A stretch of DNA of 64,000 nucleotides from contig PGXV01000001.1 of assembly GCA_002839315.1 (NCBI GenBank), positions 124,001 to 188,000 of the forward strand, read 5' to 3'. Below, piece by piece: positions 28,458-39,108 of the stretch. Source of the DNA: Spirochaetae bacterium HGW-Spirochaetae-3 (GTDB taxonomy: Bacteria; Spirochaetota; Spirochaetia; Treponematales; UBA12059). Below the pieces are notes generated by a model. The model was not told the origin of the DNA and did no database searches. It saw only the letters and a program-made list of their open reading frames with translations. Position 1 is the stretch's first letter, and each line of letters starts with the position of its first letter. The position numbers were made by a program, and so were the translations under genes.

Positions 28458-29975
28458 ATGGAAACACTAGCGATTATCAACGCGACGAGCGTAAACGAAT
28501 TCGCGACGAGGCCGCTTGCGGGCGGTCCGAGCGCCCTGGCCCGGGCTGAAACCCTGGCGAGATCCGTAGCCGGCGGCAATATCCTGGTCCTGGCTTCTTC
28601 GCCTCTTCCGGATACGGGGTTGCCGACCGTCCTGAAGCCATCCTGGAGCATGCACGACGTCCTGTCGGAGGCCGCCGCGTTCGCCTCGTCAAAACCGGAA
28701 TCCGATACCGTACTCTACCTGCAGGGCGACGCCCCGTTCGTGGATGCCGCCCTTACCGATACGCTCCTGGAGCTGCATCGAAGGTACCGCGCGGAATATA
28801 CGTTCGCGGATGGGTACCCGCCGGGATTCGCGCCCGAGCTACTCGCGGTCAAGACGCTACCCAACCTCGTCGGGCTGGCGGCGAAGCATGACGTCCCCGT
28901 GGACCGCGACGGGCTATTCGCCGTTATACAGAAGGACATAAACTCGTACGATATAGAGACGCACCTGTCTCCCGTCGACCTCAGGGCATACCGATTCTCA
29001 CCCGTTTGCGACTCTAAACGTAACGCGCTGTCGGCGGAGCGCCTCTGGAACCTCGGGGCCCGCTCCGCGGCGGACGCTGTCAGGCTACTACCGGTCCATC
29101 CGGAGCTGTTGCGGACCGTTCCCGCGTTCATGTGGGTCCAGGTCGCCGAGGGTTGCCCCCAGGCATGCTCGTACTGTCCCTATCCCATGATGGTCGGCGA
29201 TCCCAGGAGCCTGTCCGGGGTAATGCCGACCGATCGATTCGAGCGGCTCATGGCCGACGCGGAGGCTCTCTGCGACGACCTGGTCGTCGACGTATCCCTA
29301 TGGGGCGAGCCTTCGTTGCATCCGGACTTTCAGAAGATAGCCGACTCCGTCATGGCGAGGCCGCGATTCACGCTGATAGTCGAGACGAGCGGCGTAGGCT
29401 GGCCCGCCGGAGCGGCCGAAGCGGTAGCGAAGAAGGCCGGAGCCCGCGTACAGTGGATCGTATCGCTCGATGACGAGGACGACGCGGGCTATCGATCCCT
29501 CCGCGGCGAGCGTCGGGACGAGGCGATCGCCTTCGCCGACCGCATGATAGGCGTCAGCCCCGGCAACGTGCACGTCCAGGCGGTCAGGATGCGGGACAAC
29601 GAGCCTCGCCTCGAGTCGTTCTATCGAGGCTGGAAGAAGCGCGGGGACAAGGTGATCGTGCAGAAGTACGACTCGTTCGCCGGTTGCCTGCCTGACAGGA
29701 CGGTCGCTGAACTGTCTCCGCTGGATCGGCTGCCGTGCAGGCACCTGGCCAGGGATATCGCCGTGCTTATCGACGGACGCGTACCTAACTGCAAGCATTG
29801 CCTGGTCCGCGGCGCCGACTCCCGGCTGGAATACGCCGGGAGCGCGGGCAACGCCTTCGACGACGGCTTGGAGACGACATGGAATCGGATGGGCGCCTGG
29901 TACGAACGGCATCTCGCATCCGATTATCCCGAACCCTGCGGACGTTGCGATGAATACCATACCTTTAACGCTTGA
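28458..29975 (+). CDS. spirochaete-type radical SAM/SPASM protein with nucleotidyltransferase-like N-terminus
   Basis: 505 residues in three parts. Residues 1-~175 look like a GT-A nucleotidyltransferase fold of the SpsF/MobA kind (LYLQGDAPFVDAALTDTLLEL, then ADGYPPGFAPELLAVK). Residues ~220-400 are a radical SAM domain with C233-x3-C237-x2-C240 binding the [4Fe-4S] cluster. The C-terminal part carries SPASM-like cysteines (LPCRHLA, NCKHC, CGRCDEY) for further clusters. It resembles the spirochaete-restricted spiro-SPASM group, whose reaction I do not know. It begins a five-gene run and overlaps the next gene by 26 bp. Radical modification of a nucleotide sugar or an amino acid is an inference. 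Confidence 0.75.
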   Translation: METLAIINATSVNEFATRPLAGGPSALARAETLARSVAGGNILVLASSPLPDTGLPTVLKPSWSMHDVLSEAAAFASSKPESDTVLYLQGDAPFVDAALTDTLLELHRRYRAEYTFADGYPPGFAPELLAVKTLPNLVGLAAKHDVPVDRDGLFAVIQKDINSYDIETHLSPVDLRAYRFSPVCDSKRNALSAERLWNLGARSAADAVRLLPVHPELLRTVPAFMWVQVAEGCPQACSYCPYPMMVGDPRSLSGVMPTDRFERLMADAEALCDDLVVDVSLWGEPSLHPDFQKIADSVMARPRFTLIVETSGVGWPAGAAEAVAKKAGARVQWIVSLDDEDDAGYRSLRGERRDEAIAFADRMIGVSPGNVHVQAVRMRDNEPRLESFYRGWKKRGDKVIVQKYDSFAGCLPDRTVAELSPLDRLPCRHLARDIAVLIDGRVPNCKHCLVRGADSRLEYAGSAGNAFDDGLETTWNRMGAWYERHLASDYPEPCGRCDEYHTFNA

Positions 29976-30912
29976 CTCGTATAAGCCGACGTATACGGTG
30001 CTCGGCGGAGGGCGCGGCTCGGGCTGCAAGGACGGCTTCCCGGTATCGGTACTATTGCTCAATCGAGGATCGAGGCTCTACCGCGCCTCGATGATCCAGG
30101 ACCTGGTGAAGGTAGGATTCGATTCGATCGTGTCCGTGGAGGGCCTGAGCGATTCGCCCGAGCTCGAGGGCCTCGCGTCCAGGTATCCCCAGGTCCGGTT
30201 CGTCTGCCTGCACGAGGAGGCGAACCTGGGCGTCAAGATCAACATCGGCGTCAGGGAGTCGTGCTCCCCCTTCGTCCTCGTGCTATGGAACGACATGCGC
30301 CTGGCCACGAGCACCCTCTCCAGCAGGTTCTTCGACAAGGTCGTCGACCTGGACGCGGCCTGCCTCGTACCGACGCTCAACGACCCGGCCGGGTCGACGG
30401 TCCCTTCGATCAGCCATCCCGCCCAATCGGGGAAGGCCTTCAGGGTCGTGCCGCTGCCGCCCAAGGCGGACGGCGAGAAGAGCCTGTATCCGTTCGACGC
30501 CTGCGGAATCTACTCGCGGGAGAAATTCACGTCGCTGGGCGGTTACGACTGGACCATAGCGAATCCGTATTGGCAGAAGATGGATTTCGGGATGCGCGCC
30601 TGGCTATGGGGCGAATCGATACGTTACGCCCAGGCCCTCCGCATTAATTACGAAGGCGCGCCGGCGTCCGAGGATACGACGCCAGACAGCGATTACGGAC
30701 GCTTCTGGCTCAAGAACCTCGCGCCCTCCTACCGCGGCGATTCGGCAGCGCTGCCCCGTTCCAGGATGCTGAGATATATCGCGCGGTCGCGCAAGAATCC
30801 CAGGACGGCATGGGAAGAGTACAAGGCCGCCCGGGACTGGATCGTGGCCTGCTCGTACCGTTTCAAGGCCGACGCGTCGAGGCTCGCCGACCTGTGGGAT
30901 CCGCTATCGTGA
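29950..30912 (+). CDS. glycosyltransferase-like (GT-A/GT2-type) protein
   Basis: 320 residues. VSVLLLNRGSRLYRASMIQDL, EEANLGVKINIGVRESCSPFVLVLWNDMRLA-type residues (about 95-125) and the later GGYDWTIANPYWQKMDFGMRAWLWG segment match the layout of GT2 enzymes: nucleotide-binding strand, acidic metal site (here the Asp of WND) and acceptor-side ED-like region. Weaker than a textbook GT2, so the reaction is not certain. It overlaps the radical SAM gene by 26 bp and the next gene by GTGA, which ties it closely to this cluster. Confidence 0.65.
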   Translation: MNTIPLTLDSYKPTYTVLGGGRGSGCKDGFPVSVLLLNRGSRLYRASMIQDLVKVGFDSIVSVEGLSDSPELEGLASRYPQVRFVCLHEEANLGVKINIGVRESCSPFVLVLWNDMRLATSTLSSRFFDKVVDLDAACLVPTLNDPAGSTVPSISHPAQSGKAFRVVPLPPKADGEKSLYPFDACGIYSREKFTSLGGYDWTIANPYWQKMDFGMRAWLWGESIRYAQALRINYEGAPASEDTTPDSDYGRFWLKNLAPSYRGDSAALPRSRMLRYIARSRKNPRTAWEEYKAARDWIVACSYRFKADASRLADLWDPLS

Positions 30913-31595
30913 GCCGAGGCGAGCGCGCCGGCGTCGTGGTTCAGATGCGCCTGGACTCGACGAGGCTGCCGGGCAAGGCGATGCTCGAGATCGGCGGTAC
31001 CACGCTCGCGGGCATGGTGATGCGCAGGCTCCGCGGTATACGGGCGGACGAGATGATCCTGGCGACGGACGCCGACGGAGCTCGCGCTCTCGCCGGCGTC
31101 GCGGCGGAATTCGGTTTCTCCGTGTTCGCCGGCCCCAAGGACGACGTGCTCGGCCGCTACGCTATGGTGGTCGACGCGTTCGGGCTCGGTCGCGTAATAC
31201 GGGCGACCGGCGACAATCCGTTCGTGTCGATCCCGTTAGCGGAGATCGCCGTCGCCGCCGCCGACGACTCGGGAGCCGAGTACGTCGGGCTCGTCGGCAT
31301 GCCCGCCGGCATGGGCGTCGAGGTGGTCGACGCGGCGGCGCTGATGGAGGCGTCGGCGTCCGCATCGACCGCGTTCGACCGGGAGCACGTCTGTCCGTTC
31401 CTGTACGGGAACCCCGGTCGTTTCAAGGTGCTGAGGCCCGGGTGCCCGGAGGCGTATCGCCTGCCCGAAGGCCGGTTGACCGTAGATACGGCGGAGGATT
31501 TCAGGCGAGCCGAGGCCATCGTCGCGTCGCTCGGGCCGGAGCCTTCCGACGCCCAGCTCCTGTCCTGGCTATCGGAACCAACGAGGGCGGGCTAA
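30909..31595 (+). CDS. SpsF-like cytidylyltransferase/nucleotidyltransferase
   Basis: 228 residues from a GTG that overlaps the previous stop (GTGA). VVVQMRLDSTRLPGKAMLEIGGTTL is the nucleotide-binding start of the CMP-NeuAc synthetase/SpsF family, followed by VFAGPKDDVLGRY and IRATGDNPFVSI with the metal-binding Asp. The C-terminal segment RLTVDTAEDFRRAEAI is also typical. Such enzymes activate nonulosonic acids or similar sugars with CTP, in spore-coat and flagellar glycan pathways. It sits directly before an SpsG-like gene, the usual partner. Confidence 0.85.
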   Translation: MSRGERAGVVVQMRLDSTRLPGKAMLEIGGTTLAGMVMRRLRGIRADEMILATDADGARALAGVAAEFGFSVFAGPKDDVLGRYAMVVDAFGLGRVIRATGDNPFVSIPLAEIAVAAADDSGAEYVGLVGMPAGMGVEVVDAAALMEASASASTAFDREHVCPFLYGNPGRFKVLRPGCPEAYRLPEGRLTVDTAEDFRRAEAIVASLGPEPSDAQLLSWLSEPTRAG

Positions 31596-31600
31596 GCGTC

Positions 31601-33409
31601 ATGATCGAAATTCTCCTCGTGCCTTCGGTTCGCCGCGGAAACGGCTCGGGACACCTCGTGCGATGCTTCGGTCTGGCGAGGGAGCTGGGCCCGCAGGCCG
31701 CCGTCTACCTGCCCGATGATCCAGGCATCGGCTCATGGAGCTCTGACGAGCTCAAGCTGGCATATCCCCGGGAAATGGGGTCGGTAAGGACCATCGGCGC
31801 GCTACGTTCCGATGCGCGCTTCCGTCTCGTCGTCCTTGACAATCGCGAGACGAGCGCATCCGTCCTGGAAAAGTGGGCGGTCCAGGGAGCCGTCGTCGCG
31901 GTGGACGAAGGAGGGGAGGCGAGGAACGCCGCTCCCTATCTCGTGGATATACTGCCGCGGCCCGCCGGACGCGTTAAGGCCGGAACCCCTCCCAATATAG
32001 CGTCCCTCGGATTCCTGCCTCTGCCAGCCGGGAGGCGAGAGCCCCCGACGTCGATACATCGGGTGCTCGTCAGCTTCGGCGGCGAGGATCCGGCCGGCCT
32101 GGCTAACGCGTTCCTCTCTGCGGCGGTCGGGGACGGGTTGCTGGGCGCCGAGCGCGTTACCGTCGTCTCGGGCGCGCTGTCGAACTCCGAGGCCATGTTC
32201 CCCGGCGTTACCGCCATCGGACCGGTGCAGGATCTCAAGGAAAAGCTACAGGCGTTCGACCTCGTCGTCACGCAATTCGGCCTGACCGCCTTCGAGGCGG
32301 CCTGGGCGGGCTGCGCGGTGTTGCTCCTCAACCCGGGCATCGTGCACGAGAGGCTATCCGACGCCGCTGGCTTCACGAGCCTCGGTGTCGGGAGGCCGAA
32401 CAAGCGGGCCCTGCGAGACGCTCTCGCCGACCCGCGGGCGATGCTGAAGGCTTCCCGCGACGCGGCTCCGCGCGAGCGCCTCGACCTGGCCGCTAGAATA
32501 TCGGCCCTGACGCCGAAACACGCGGGCGCATGCCCGGCCTGCGGAGAAGGCAATGGAATCGCGTTGTATCGGAACGAACGGAAGACCTATCTCCGCTGCC
32601 CGGCATGCGGTCTCGTGCGCATGGCCCATTTCGCGCCCAGGCAGAATCCGTACGCCGAGCGCTCGTATTTCTTCGAAGAATACAAGGCGCAGTATGGTCG
32701 GACCTATATAGAGGATATACCGATGATACGGGCGGCCGCGGCGAAACGGCTCACCGTTATCGAATCCATCATGCCGGCGGCTCACGAGGGGCAGAGCGTG
32801 CTGGACGTCGGCTGCGCCTACGGGGCGTTCGTCGCCGAGGCCCAGGCCAGGGGATGGAACGCCGTGGGATCGGACGTGGCGCCCGACGCCGTGGAATACG
32901 TCAAGGCGAATTACGGTATCCCGGCGTTCATCGCGGATTTCGCCGAGCCGGCCGCCGACGGTCTGTATCCCCGGGGGCTGGCCTGCCTGACGATGTGGTA
33001 CGTCATCGAGCACTTCGACGAGCTGGCGCGCGTACTCAGGCGCGTCGGGTCGCTGCTCCGCGAGGGCGGAGTATTCGCTTTCTCGACGCCGTCGTGCTCG
33101 GGCGTATCGGCGCGGAAGGACGCGGACGATTTCTACGATAGATCGCCCGACGATCACTTCACGGTCTGGAGCCCCGCTACCGCTCCCGGTATTCTCAAGC
33201 GATACGGTTTTGAGGTACAACGTATCGTCGTTACCGGACACCATCCGGAACGGTTCCCGGGCGTACGCGACGATAAGCGCTCGCTCGGATACAGGGCCGC
33301 GATGGCGGCCTCCAGGCTCTTCGGATTGGGCGACACCTTCGAGTGCTACGCCGTATACCGGGGCCGGGCAGACGGAGCCGCCCCCGCGCGGCCGGCGGAG
33401 CGAAGATGA
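31601..33409 (+). CDS. SpsG/PseG-like domain fused to zinc ribbon and SAM-dependent methyltransferase
   Basis: 602 residues. Residues ~1-300 match SpsG/PseG (RRGNGSGHLVRCFGLARELG with the key His, VVAVDEGGEA, VSFGGEDPAGLANAF, VVTQFGLTAFEAAWAG), which remove UDP from modified sugars. Then a CPAC...CPAC zinc ribbon (about 307-340) and a class I methyltransferase with motif I VLDVGCAYGAFVAEA and motif IV-like LTMWYVIEHFDEL. The two catalytic parts are usually separate proteins, so the fusion suggests successive steps on one sugar. The ATG at 31601 follows a short gap; no strong Shine-Dalgarno is seen. The stop overlaps the next start (ATGA). Confidence 0.8.
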   Translation: MIEILLVPSVRRGNGSGHLVRCFGLARELGPQAAVYLPDDPGIGSWSSDELKLAYPREMGSVRTIGALRSDARFRLVVLDNRETSASVLEKWAVQGAVVAVDEGGEARNAAPYLVDILPRPAGRVKAGTPPNIASLGFLPLPAGRREPPTSIHRVLVSFGGEDPAGLANAFLSAAVGDGLLGAERVTVVSGALSNSEAMFPGVTAIGPVQDLKEKLQAFDLVVTQFGLTAFEAAWAGCAVLLLNPGIVHERLSDAAGFTSLGVGRPNKRALRDALADPRAMLKASRDAAPRERLDLAARISALTPKHAGACPACGEGNGIALYRNERKTYLRCPACGLVRMAHFAPRQNPYAERSYFFEEYKAQYGRTYIEDIPMIRAAAAKRLTVIESIMPAAHEGQSVLDVGCAYGAFVAEAQARGWNAVGSDVAPDAVEYVKANYGIPAFIADFAEPAADGLYPRGLACLTMWYVIEHFDELARVLRRVGSLLREGGVFAFSTPSCSGVSARKDADDFYDRSPDDHFTVWSPATAPGILKRYGFEVQRIVVTGHHPERFPGVRDDKRSLGYRAAMAASRLFGLGDTFECYAVYRGRADGAAPARPAERR

Positions 33410-34986
33410 AGTCAGTATTGATACTGGGCGCGGGCGGTATGCAGGGCCCCGCGATTCGTTTGGCGAAGGCCAAGGGCTATCGCGTCTACGCGGCCGACGG
33501 GAATCCCCTCGCGGCGTGCGCGTCGATCGCCGATGAATTCCTCCACATCGACCTAAAGGACAAGGAAGCCCTGGCGGAGGCGGCCGCCGGTATTCGCGGC
33601 CTCGCGGGCGTCCTTACCGCCGGCACCGACTTCTCGGCGTCGGTAGCCTGGGTGGCCGAACGGTGCGGACTGCCGGGGATCCCGTACGAAGCGGCCCTCG
33701 ACGCCTCGGACAAGGCCCGGATGCGCGCCAGGCTCGAGGCGGCGGGAGTCCCCGTTCCGCCGTACGCCTTCGGAACGTCGGCAGACGATCCCGAGGCGCT
33801 GGCCTCCCGAGTCTCGCCGTTGCCCGTCGTCGTAAAGCCGGTCGACAATATGGGCGCCCGCGGTTGCAGGCTGGCGCGCACTATTCCCGAGCTCCGCATG
33901 GCATGGGACGACGCCGTCTCGTATTCCAGGTCCGGCCGCGCGATAGTCGAGGCCTATATGAGAGGCCCCGAATTCAGCCTGGACGCGATCGTCCGGGATG
34001 GCGAGGTTACGCTGCGCGGCATAGCAGACCGAGTCGTCGTATTCGAGCCGTTCTTCGTCGAGATGGGCCACACGATGCCTACTGCGTTCGGGCCGGAGGT
34101 GGTCGACGAGGTCGTCGCCGTATTCAAGGCGGGCATCGAGGCGCTAGGCATCCGCGACGGCGCGGCGAAGGGCGATATCAAGTATACCGAACGCGGAGCC
34201 TTCGTCGGGGAGATAGCGGCGCGGCTCTCGGGCGGCTATATGTCAGGCTGGACCTATCCATACGCCAGCGGCATAGAGGCGACCGCGGAAGCCATAGACA
34301 TCGCCTGCGGCGTATCGCCGGGCCGCGCCGAGCCGACCTTGGACCTCGTCTGTTCCGAGAGGGCATGGATATCGATTCCCGGCAGGATAGCCGAGATACG
34401 CGGACTCGACCTGGCCGCCGGCCGGGACGGCGTCCGCGACGTATTCCCCCGGGCGTCCGTCGGCGACCGCGTCGTGTTCCCGTGCAACAACGTCGAGAAA
34501 TGCGGTAACGTGCTCGCCGTCGCCTCGTCGATAGCCGAGGCGGACGATGTCGCGGAGGCCGCGGCCCGGGCAATCCTCCTACGACTGGAGCCCGGCGACG
34601 GGGATACGGCGGCCTTCCTCCGCGGCGAGGGACGCATCGTCGGGCCCGACGGTACCAGCTGGCCGCCTGACGCCTTCGAGGGGCTGTCGGCCATGACCCG
34701 TTCGTCTCTGGCCAAGATGCCGGACATGCTGCGGATTGACCCCGAGGCGGAGACGGTATCCATAGCGCCGTTACGCGGCTCGGAGACCGAGTCGGCCGTA
34801 GACTGGCAAGACCGGACCATCACGATGGCGCTCGAGGCCGTGAAGGAGCTGACCGGCGCGACGGTGGGCATGCACGGCGACGCTGTAGTGGGCGCGGCCT
34901 TCTGGAAGGCGTTCTTCCGCGGCGGGTACCAGGCCGGCGCGTGGGTCGTCGATAGCGTGTCGCGTCGCGGGAATAAGCCCAGATGA
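33406..34986 (+). CDS. ATP-grasp ligase with C-terminal extension
   Basis: 526 residues. The N-terminal preATP-grasp domain starts KSVLILGAGGMQGPAIRLAK. The ATP-grasp core has PLPVVVKPVDNMGARG (lysine and glycine-rich loop), VEAYMRGPEFSLDAIV and the catalytic EIAARLSGG with a preceding D/E pair. Relatives join an acid to an amine (amino acid ligases, carbamoyl-phosphate synthase L-like). The C-terminal ~120 residues after the core are not recognised. In this cluster it could attach an amino acid to a sugar amine or carboxylate; that is inference. It overlaps both neighbours by ATGA. Confidence 0.75.
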   Translation: MKSVLILGAGGMQGPAIRLAKAKGYRVYAADGNPLAACASIADEFLHIDLKDKEALAEAAAGIRGLAGVLTAGTDFSASVAWVAERCGLPGIPYEAALDASDKARMRARLEAAGVPVPPYAFGTSADDPEALASRVSPLPVVVKPVDNMGARGCRLARTIPELRMAWDDAVSYSRSGRAIVEAYMRGPEFSLDAIVRDGEVTLRGIADRVVVFEPFFVEMGHTMPTAFGPEVVDEVVAVFKAGIEALGIRDGAAKGDIKYTERGAFVGEIAARLSGGYMSGWTYPYASGIEATAEAIDIACGVSPGRAEPTLDLVCSERAWISIPGRIAEIRGLDLAAGRDGVRDVFPRASVGDRVVFPCNNVEKCGNVLAVASSIAEADDVAEAAARAILLRLEPGDGDTAAFLRGEGRIVGPDGTSWPPDAFEGLSAMTRSSLAKMPDMLRIDPEAETVSIAPLRGSETESAVDWQDRTITMALEAVKELTGATVGMHGDAVVGAAFWKAFFRGGYQAGAWVVDSVSRRGNKPR

Positions 34987-36677: not shown

Positions 36678-37760
36678 ATGAGAAGGCCGTTAGCACTGAT
36701 CGTCGCCGCTCTATTGATCGCGAACGCATCGGTCGTTTTCGCGGATGAAGCAGTCCTTATAGATTTTTCCCTCCTCGGAGTGGATATTATCGAGGACCCC
36801 ATCCAGAAGGGAACGATGACGCAGAACCGCGCGACGATGATGGATTTCTCCACCGTCGCCGGAGCCAGCTATACCGAAGAGCAGAAGAAGCAGATGGCGA
36901 TATCGCTCGCTATCGAGAACTGGGACGTGATACTCGCTTCGTCCTCCAGGACCGGCGCTCGCCAGTCGCTCTCGTATACCCGAGAGGCGCAGATCGCGCA
37001 GGACGCGAAGCAGTTCCCCGGAGCCAAGGCGCTCGGCGTACGCATTAACTTCCCGCTCGAGGCGTTCAACTCCTGGGCCAGGATCGTTCCTCCCTTCGAC
37101 GTCCCCGCCTTCGAGCCGAAGGCCGATATCGACGACGCGGGCGTTATCGTTCCCAAGGCGGATGCCCAGGGTTCCGATCCCGTCAATGCGAGGCTTTCCC
37201 GCTTCGAAGGCAGCTATAACGCCGAATCCAAGATCACGACCGCCCTCGGCGTCGTGAAGAACGTCGGCGTTATCAAGTCTCTCGCGATCAACGTAAAGGG
37301 GCTTAACTTCCCGCACGGTCTGTCGGTCATCCTCAAGGATAACGACGGCGCCGAGCACGTTATGTTCATGGGTTACCTCAACTTCGACGGCTGGCGCGAG
37401 CTGCGCTGGGACAATCCCCAGTACATCACCGACGTACGCAACCGCGAGCTCAGGATCGACCCGCTGTACCCGCGCTCTACTCCGTTCGTAAAGTTCGGCG
37501 GGCTCATCGTCTCTAGGGACGCCGGAGCTATCGGCGGCGACTTCATCGTCTACGTAAAGGACGTCAAGATACTCTATGACAAGGCCGTCCTTGAGCCCGT
37601 ACGGGACATCGACGACGAGGCTATCTGGGGTATCGTCGGCCAGAAGGAAGACGATCGCAAGCGCATGGAGAGCCAGCGCTTCGGATCTTCTCAGGTCATG
37701 CGCTATATCGAGCGCATGAAGCAGGAGACCAAGACCGAGTTTACCGGTACCACTGAGTAA
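36678..37760 (+). CDS. flaA: flagellar filament outer layer (sheath) protein FlaA
   Basis: 360 residues with a cleavable signal peptide (MRRPLALIVAALLIANASVVFA). The mature protein matches spirochaete FlaA: VLIDFSLLG, NWDVILASSSR, LGVRINFPLEAFNSWARIVPPF, SLAINVKGLNFPHGLSVIL, YLNFDGWRELRWDNPQYI and a C-terminal coil-rich tail. FlaA forms the outer layer of the periplasmic flagellar filament around the FlaB core. It has its own consensus promoter and terminator. It is the main marker that places this window in the spirochaetes. Confidence 0.95.
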   Translation: MRRPLALIVAALLIANASVVFADEAVLIDFSLLGVDIIEDPIQKGTMTQNRATMMDFSTVAGASYTEEQKKQMAISLAIENWDVILASSSRTGARQSLSYTREAQIAQDAKQFPGAKALGVRINFPLEAFNSWARIVPPFDVPAFEPKADIDDAGVIVPKADAQGSDPVNARLSRFEGSYNAESKITTALGVVKNVGVIKSLAINVKGLNFPHGLSVILKDNDGAEHVMFMGYLNFDGWRELRWDNPQYITDVRNRELRIDPLYPRSTPFVKFGGLIVSRDAGAIGGDFIVYVKDVKILYDKAVLEPVRDIDDEAIWGIVGQKEDDRKRMESQRFGSSQVMRYIERMKQETKTEFTGTTE

Positions 37761-37827: not shown

Positions 37828-37856
37828 TTGCCCGCCCGCGCGGATAGGCGTATCCT
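37828..37856 (+). promoter_or_regulatory. promoter with possible leaderless start
   Basis: TTGCCC (37828-37833), 17-bp spacer, TATCCT (37851-37856). The ATG at 37864 lies 7 nt after the -10 box and no Shine-Dalgarno is present, so the transcript may begin at or next to the start codon. Confidence 0.45.
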
Positions 37857-37863
37857 TCATCCC

Positions 37864-39108
37864 ATGGATAGCATTGAACCCATACCGAGCAGGGCATCGC
37901 TTGAGAAAGCGTATAAGTCCAACAAGAAACTACTTGAAAGCATTTTGGGCGAGATGGTTGCGAGAATGCAGGGAACCCTGGATACCGCGGGCCTTTTCCC
38001 CGCGTATAAGAACAGGATCAAGTCGTTCCAGAGCTATTTCGCGAAGAAGATCAAGTTCATGCGGGACGCGTCATCGGCCGGTACTCCGCCATTGCCAATA
38101 ACCGACCTTCTAGCGGTCCGCATTATCTGTCCGTTCATAGGGGACCTTGATCGCGTAGAGAAGGCGTTGGCGGAGCGGTTCACGGTTCGCGAAGTAGAAC
38201 GGAAGGGCGCCGAACGTTCCTTCAAGGAATTCGGCTACGAATCGACGCATCTACTCCTGGAGGTACCGCCTGAATTAGCGAAAGGATCGAGCTTCCTCGA
38301 TCCTCCGGTATGCGAGGTCCAGATACGTACCATCCTGCAGGACGCATGGGCGGAGGTAGAGCACGAGCTCGTATATAAGGCCGAATTTACCCCGTTCGAC
38401 GACCCCATGAAGCGTAAGCTGGCGGCGTTGAACGCGAACCTGACGCTATCGGATATGCTTTTCCAGGAGATTCGGGATTATCAGCACCAATTGACCAATG
38501 AGCTGGCTAAACGGCGGGTCGCGTTCTTCAAGAAGATAGAAGACGCCATAGACAAGGATCTATACGCCGGTATAAAGGAATTGCCCGTAGCCGGCGGTGA
38601 AGAACCGAAGCAGCCCGCCTGGCTCGGTCCCTGGAAGTCGTTGGACGACCTGCTCCTCGAGGCGCTGAACGCCCATAACCGCGCCGACTACGTGCGCGCT
38701 ATCGATATCTATTCGCATATCCTGGCCATGAACCCGAAGCCGGAGATACGCGCGTTGATATTCAAGCATCGCGGCATGGCCTTCTTCGCCGAGAGCAGGT
38801 ACGACGAGGCCAGGGAGGATTTTACCGCGACTATCGATATAGACCCGAAATGCTATAAGGCCGCGTACTATCGCGGCGTCGTGCATAGCGTCAAGCAGAA
38901 TTATTCGGCCGCGATAGACGATTTTAATAACGCGCTAGCGATACACCCGTACCACTTCTATTCGACCTACAGAAGGGCGCAAGCCTATTACCATATCGAG
39001 GATTATCCCAAGGCGTTGGCCGATTGCGACTCGGCCCTCGAGCTGGAGCCCGAGAACGAATCGTTGAAGAAGCTGAAGGGGATGGTGCTCAAGAAACTCA
39101 AGATGTGA
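37864..39108 (+). CDS. RelA/SpoT-domain protein with C-terminal TPR repeats
   Basis: 414 residues. The first ~215 form a (p)ppGpp synthetase-like domain: KNRIKSFQSYFAKKIKF, ITDLLAVRIICPFIGDLDRVEKAL, FGYESTHLLLEVP and VCEVQIRTILQDAWAEVEHELVYK, all key synthetase positions including the Asp and the Glu of EVQIRT. No HD hydrolase domain is present. After a linker, about 130 residues hold three to four TPR repeats (KHRGMAFFAESRYDEAREDF, AYYRGVVHSVKQNYSAAIDDF, YRRAQAYYHIEDYPKALADCD). It would be a small alarmone synthetase regulated by protein contacts. It follows flaA but has its own promoter. Confidence 0.85.
   Translation: MDSIEPIPSRASLEKAYKSNKKLLESILGEMVARMQGTLDTAGLFPAYKNRIKSFQSYFAKKIKFMRDASSAGTPPLPITDLLAVRIICPFIGDLDRVEKALAERFTVREVERKGAERSFKEFGYESTHLLLEVPPELAKGSSFLDPPVCEVQIRTILQDAWAEVEHELVYKAEFTPFDDPMKRKLAALNANLTLSDMLFQEIRDYQHQLTNELAKRRVAFFKKIEDAIDKDLYAGIKELPVAGGEEPKQPAWLGPWKSLDDLLLEALNAHNRADYVRAIDIYSHILAMNPKPEIRALIFKHRGMAFFAESRYDEAREDFTATIDIDPKCYKAAYYRGVVHSVKQNYSAAIDDFNNALAIHPYHFYSTYRRAQAYYHIEDYPKALADCDSALELEPENESLKKLKGMVLKKLKM

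Follow-up and report, generated by a model that had tools for sequence, protein, structure and literature searches.

In Treponema denticola, filament assembly and motility depend on a 450.2 Da glycan borne by the FlaB flagellin (PMC9481697), yet the near-universal spiro-SPASM protein of spirochaetes has no assigned role. A copy of its gene is found in the window analysed here, a stretch of 64,000 nucleotides from Spirochaetae bacterium HGW-Spirochaetae-3 (Table 1), and its product joins a fold of the sugar-nucleotide type to a radical SAM/SPASM enzyme. The match to the NCBIfam model TIGR04321 (spiroSPASM; score 471 bits, cut-off 250) runs from residue 8 to residue 505, that is, from position 6 to position 510 of the 510 in the model. 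Because this match spans nearly the whole protein, the fusion is the usual architecture of the family and no local accident, and the window protein is a member that shows no difference from it. The family is thus already known by name. A search of open-licence papers for that name found nothing, leaving the family named and its function undescribed, and a PHROGs search gave no match.

Table 1. Features of the spiro-SPASM gene and of the surrounding genes (positions in the window)
Position	Strand	Feature	Evidence or remark
28458..29975	+	Spiro-SPASM protein (TIGR04321), 505 aa, ATG start	NCBIfam, Pfam
28458..29060	+	N-terminal SpsF/CMP-sugar-synthetase-like (GT-A) domain, residues 1-201, degenerate catalytic motifs	AlphaFold2, 6oew, hhalign
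28722..28745	+	QGDAPFVD motif, residues 89-96	
29121..29642	+	Radical SAM barrel, residues 222-395	PF04055; SuiB/BlsE fold matches
29154..29177	+	CxxxCxxC motif C233/C237/C240	Intact in the window copy
29643..29972	+	Reduced SPASM domain, residues 396-505	C427, C445, C494, C497
29950..30912	+	Conserved partner, 320 aa, no known family	Seen within Spirochaetia
30909..31595	+	SpsF-type cytidylyltransferase, catalytic motifs intact	PF02348; 6oew 1.5e-21
31601..33409	+	Weakly PseG-like N-terminal part, zinc-ribbon-like segment and SAM methyltransferase	Methyltransf_23
33343..34986	+	ATP-grasp ligase with L-amino-acid-ligase C-terminal domain	PF13535, PF18603
34983..36035	+	N-acetylmuramoyl-L-alanine amidase	PF01520
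36032..36586	+	Small protein, order conserved	Weak Germane match under cut-off
36678..37760	+	FlaA flagellar sheath protein	PF04620
45268..46872	-	Maf/MptE-like glycosyltransferase candidate	PF01973; one of four PF01973 matches in the genome

An earlier note on this gene had read its N-terminal part as a nucleotide-binding fold of the SpsF/MobA type with an acidic site. The fold is borne out. AlphaFold2 models the isolated domain with a pLDDT of 92 and a pTM of 0.90, the best PDB match of this model is 6oew, a cytidylyltransferase from Leptospira borgpetersenii (Z 19.1, 2.7 Å over 199 residues), and the profile of the family N-domain aligns with 50 SpsF proteins of the neighbouring type (hhalign 99.5%, E 2e-22, 204 columns). 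The resemblance is to CMP-sugar synthetases; the MobA-like model NTP_transf_3 (PF12804) reaches 20.1 bits, under its gathering cut-off of 27. In the SpsF proteins, residues R47, S50, R52, L53, K56, R131, D135, E192, H193, T224 and D226 are 96-100% conserved. Compared with SpsF-type cytidylyltransferases such as 6oew and the SpsF of B. subtilis, with which it shares fold and homology, the spiro-SPASM N-domain is devoid of the Arg/His motifs, of the second metal aspartate and of the RxxSxRLPxK triphosphate motif, the latter being near-invariant in the neighbouring SpsF. The acidic site is not conserved family-wide: D91, the aspartate of QGDAPF, occurs in 78 of 117 relatives (51-70% by weighted count), and at the second metal position (D185) an aspartate is seen in 27-40% of the family, again weighted. 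The residues retained in the family are P93, P121, G123, E167, D174, R176 and R179. The N-domain is therefore an SpsF paralogue that has kept the binding fold and, for the most part, not the catalytic residues. Pairs made of a catalytically inactive nucleotidyltransferase paralogue and an active one are known from GMPPA/GMPPB. That complex is present in the Foldseek list; its likeness to spiro-SPASM and SpsF is one of analogy alone, and GMPPA/GMPPB has no radical SAM part.

The radical SAM core and the SPASM-like cysteines, also pointed out earlier, were recovered as well. PF04055 scores 34.8 bits, above its gathering cut-off of 29.5, and the CxxxCxxC motif is in place. With AlphaFold2, confidence is fair for the barrel and poor for the SPASM region (pLDDT about 24-64 by block). 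In structural comparisons of the model, residues 186-500 match SuiB (Z 18.8, 3.5 Å over 264 residues) and residues 220-505 match BlsE (Z 18.1, 3.4 Å over 257), among other SPASM enzymes. The SPASM model PF13186 itself scores 18.6 bits, under its gathering cut-off of 21.5. The canonical SPASM pattern comprises seven cysteines, CX9-15GX4C followed by CX2CX5CX3C and a last C. Here just C427-X12-G440-X4-C445 and C494-X2-C497 are found before the chain ends at residue 505. These four cysteines are invariant, occurring in every complete sequence among the 117 family proteins. Thus, the window protein shares with SuiB, SkfB and anSME the barrel, the SPASM fold and CxxxCxxC, whereas the family differs from them in having four of the seven canonical SPASM cysteines and in the loss of the radical cysteines in half of its members.

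This loss was followed across the family. Of the 117 proteins, 54 have an intact CxxxCxxC triad and 63 lack it. The set lacking it takes in the Brachyspira-like family as well as two genomes whose sizes match those of T. denticola ATCC 35405 (2,843,201 bases) and T. pallidum Nichols (1,139,633 bases). For 113 proteins, a maximum-likelihood tree was computed with the motif columns left out and by a quick method, so that single branches are less certain; on it, the state of the triad changes 15 times by parsimony, at least eight of these changes being forced by well-supported branches. Such a tree reads gains and losses alike; repeated independent gains of the exact CxxxCxxC within a radical SAM fold are implausible. 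Barrels that lack the cysteines evolve under purifying selection, with pairwise dN/dS of 0.04-0.31, similar to pairs that have them. Moreover, most genomes hold one spiro-SPASM copy, and hence no paralogue that would compensate for the missing triad. The SAM-pocket residues G283, E284, E309, T310 and G312 stay conserved in the members without the triad, where, judging from these residues, SAM or another ligand could still be bound, a point that weighs against the explanation favoured below. Replacement of CxxxCxxC by an alternative set of cysteines was considered and rejected, 39 of the 63 proteins having no cysteine at all in the loop. A single one of the 63, L150, shows a near motif, C-x3-C-x4-C (CPAHCDNKFC), perhaps an intermediate on the way to losing the triad.

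Since the triad was lost in 63 of the 117 proteins while the protein was kept, radical chemistry is unlikely as the common function of the family, and its core role is probably a non-radical one. This bears on the possibility that spiro-SPASM works on a CMP-sugar as a conventional radical SAM/SPASM enzyme, whose N-domain would present the nucleotide conjugate and whose barrel would remove or rearrange groups on it in the manner of BlsE. BlsE, the radical SAM decarboxylase of cytosylglucuronic acid, is indeed among the best structural matches and offers by analogy a nucleoside-sugar type of substrate; the intact CxxxCxxC of the window copy, the conserved SAM-site residues and the neighbouring genes of a sugar-nucleotide pathway agree with such an activity. 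However, BlsE belongs to another pathway and has no fused nucleotidyltransferase domain, and a family in which over half of the members examined lost the cysteines from an undecayed gene makes this explanation unlikely. The earlier suggestion that the substrate is a nucleotide conjugate is therefore divided: gene surroundings and co-occurrence support a sugar-nucleotide (CMP-nonulosonate) context, but the loss of the radical cysteines makes radical modification of such a conjugate unlikely as a shared function, possible as it is in this species.

The genes around spiro-SPASM point to the same context. The SpsF gene likely begins at a GTG that overlaps the stop of the preceding gene, and the PseG-like/methyltransferase gene (PseG-MT) at the ATG at 31601. 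The order SpsF, PseG-MT, ATP-grasp ligase, amidase, Germane-like protein and FlaA is widely conserved in Spirochaetia. Beyond this class, the SpsF and PseG-MT neighbours persist in the phylum and the others are lost. Among 78 neighbourhoods, at least 55 have SpsF on the downstream side and at least 53 have PseG-MT; the two are fused in several Treponema-like genera. In B. subtilis, the sps genes, including spsF, form the CMP-legionaminic acid pathway (PMC7439481). In the Brachyspira-like loci (L059, L075, L076, L148 and L149), spiro-SPASM has neither SpsF nor PseG neighbours. Outside Spirochaetia, inspection of the upstream genes by eye showed no NeuB; several were SurA-type PPIase-like or amino-acid biosynthesis-like. 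For the 320 aa partner, which in Spirochaetia follows spiro-SPASM immediately, searches of Pfam, NCBIfam and PDB sequences found no match; by its appearance it may be a GT-A glycosyltransferase.

Across the phylum, the spiro-SPASM gene is carried by 241 of 296 Spirochaetota genomes. The 55 others, counted by hand from two tables, are 30 of family f6, apparently Borreliaceae, 15 of families f9 and f12, apparently non-flagellated, and 10 more. Outside these three families, 241 of 251 genomes carry the gene, and the 10 that lack it are all less than 90% complete. The f6 genomes without the gene are small (0.9-1.9 Mb) and have FlaA; in the 15 genomes of f9 and f12, FlaA is absent too. Outside the Borreliaceae-like family, every FlaA-bearing genome examined that is at least 90% complete has the gene. 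NeuB (E below 1e-40) was found in 58 of 58 genomes bearing spiro-SPASM, 0 of 11 of f6 and 2 of 11 of f9/f12, and Maf-type proteins (PF01973) in 55 of 55, 0 of 4 and 1 of 6, respectively; these counts compare related lineages and are inflated by shared ancestry. In a subset bearing spiro-SPASM, PseB-like and PseC-like genes are present in 19 and 20 of 20 genomes, often adjacent, and both are missing from the two f6 genomes tested. As PseB, PseC, PseI and PseG all score under the equivalog cut-offs, these genes are named "-like" and do not specify the sugar. The gene set for nonulosonic-acid flagellin glycosylation, i.e. a NeuB-type synthase, PseB/PseC/PseG-like proteins, a CMP-synthetase and Maf, is found within the same genome. 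Spiro-SPASM is very probably linked to the nonulosonic-acid pathway, because its carriers also have this pathway and Maf, and because the gene is likewise missing from the flagellated lineage that lacks the pathway. Genomes bearing spiro-SPASM have two to five PF01973 matches each. A role of spiro-SPASM as the flagellin glycosyltransferase itself was set aside, given the Maf-type proteins in all 55 such genomes.

SPASM enzymes recognise precursor peptides, and the protein might instead bind flagellin, the barrel and SPASM domain recognising a FlaB peptide and either delivering it to the Maf transferases or modifying it directly. That the closest folds (SuiB, SkfB, anSME) act on peptides or proteins, that the SPASM cysteines are the invariant part and that FlaA and Maf occur in the same genomes would all fit; however, the N-domain and the adjacent genes are of the sugar-nucleotide type, and outside the barrel the structural comparison showed nothing that resembles a peptide-binding domain, so that we regard a flagellin-binding factor as improbable. 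An envelope or sheath biogenesis protein that merely shares an operon with the amidase and FlaA, unrelated to the flagellin sugar, is very improbable: these two genes do lie downstream in many Spirochaetia, but their linkage is lost in many families where that to SpsF/PseG persists, and the Borreliaceae-like genomes retain FlaA without spiro-SPASM.

Linkage to the pathway, paralogy, motif loss and continued selection, all computed directly, lead us to favour a pseudo-nucleotidyltransferase that would serve the CMP-nonulosonate machinery as an accessory subunit, radical chemistry being an optional addition in this species. As a whole, this is the best explanation at hand, and its chances fall a little short of even. 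Spiro-SPASM would then be a phylum-wide accessory in the pathway that makes a CMP-activated nonulosonic (pseudaminic-type) acid for the glycosylation of FlaB; a role there, like the substrate and any radical reaction, is suggested by genomic context. In Leptospira, putative glycans of FlaB1 are located at the core-sheath interface (PMC13144727). The N-domain, a paralogue of the catalytically complete SpsF, no longer has the residues needed to bind and activate the nucleotide triphosphate, and spiro-SPASM would most likely pair with SpsF, as inactive GMPPA does with GMPPB, or hold its CMP-sugar product. Homology and adjacency are what suggest the pairing, and a degenerate nucleotidyltransferase subunit or CMP-sugar holder, perhaps bound to SpsF, is put forward tentatively. 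The same reserve applies to the idea that the protein, fused to a dead copy of the neighbouring CMP-sugar synthetase, regulates flagellin sugar activation or acts as a scaffold for it, and that it would have shed its radical centre independently at least eight times and always kept its reduced SPASM metal site. The conserved working surface may consist of the four-cysteine SPASM site together with the barrel. Where a species retains CxxxCxxC, the barrel can probably still carry out radical SAM chemistry on the sugar or on its acyl arm; for such an optional activity where the cysteines persist, as in the window copy, the balance is modestly favourable. Elsewhere, radical activity would have been dropped repeatedly and the protein retained, which would imply that the conserved core job is non-radical. 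If the genome of 2,843,201 bases is that of T. denticola, the glycan of this organism does not require radical chemistry by spiro-SPASM.

In the open-licence papers searched, nothing was found on the N-domain being an SpsF paralogue, on the radical centre having been lost repeatedly or on the pathway to which the protein is assigned here. The family offers a natural series of repeated radical SAM site losses under continued selection, and the role of SPASM proteins devoid of radical chemistry thereby becomes directly testable.

Two further features of these loci may be mentioned. In the five Brachyspira-like loci, a protein of about 140 aa comes after spiro-SPASM. In the window, positions 37828-39108 encode a protein in which tetratricopeptide repeats are joined to a RelA/SpoT synthetase-like domain, an arrangement conserved after FlaA in several relatives.
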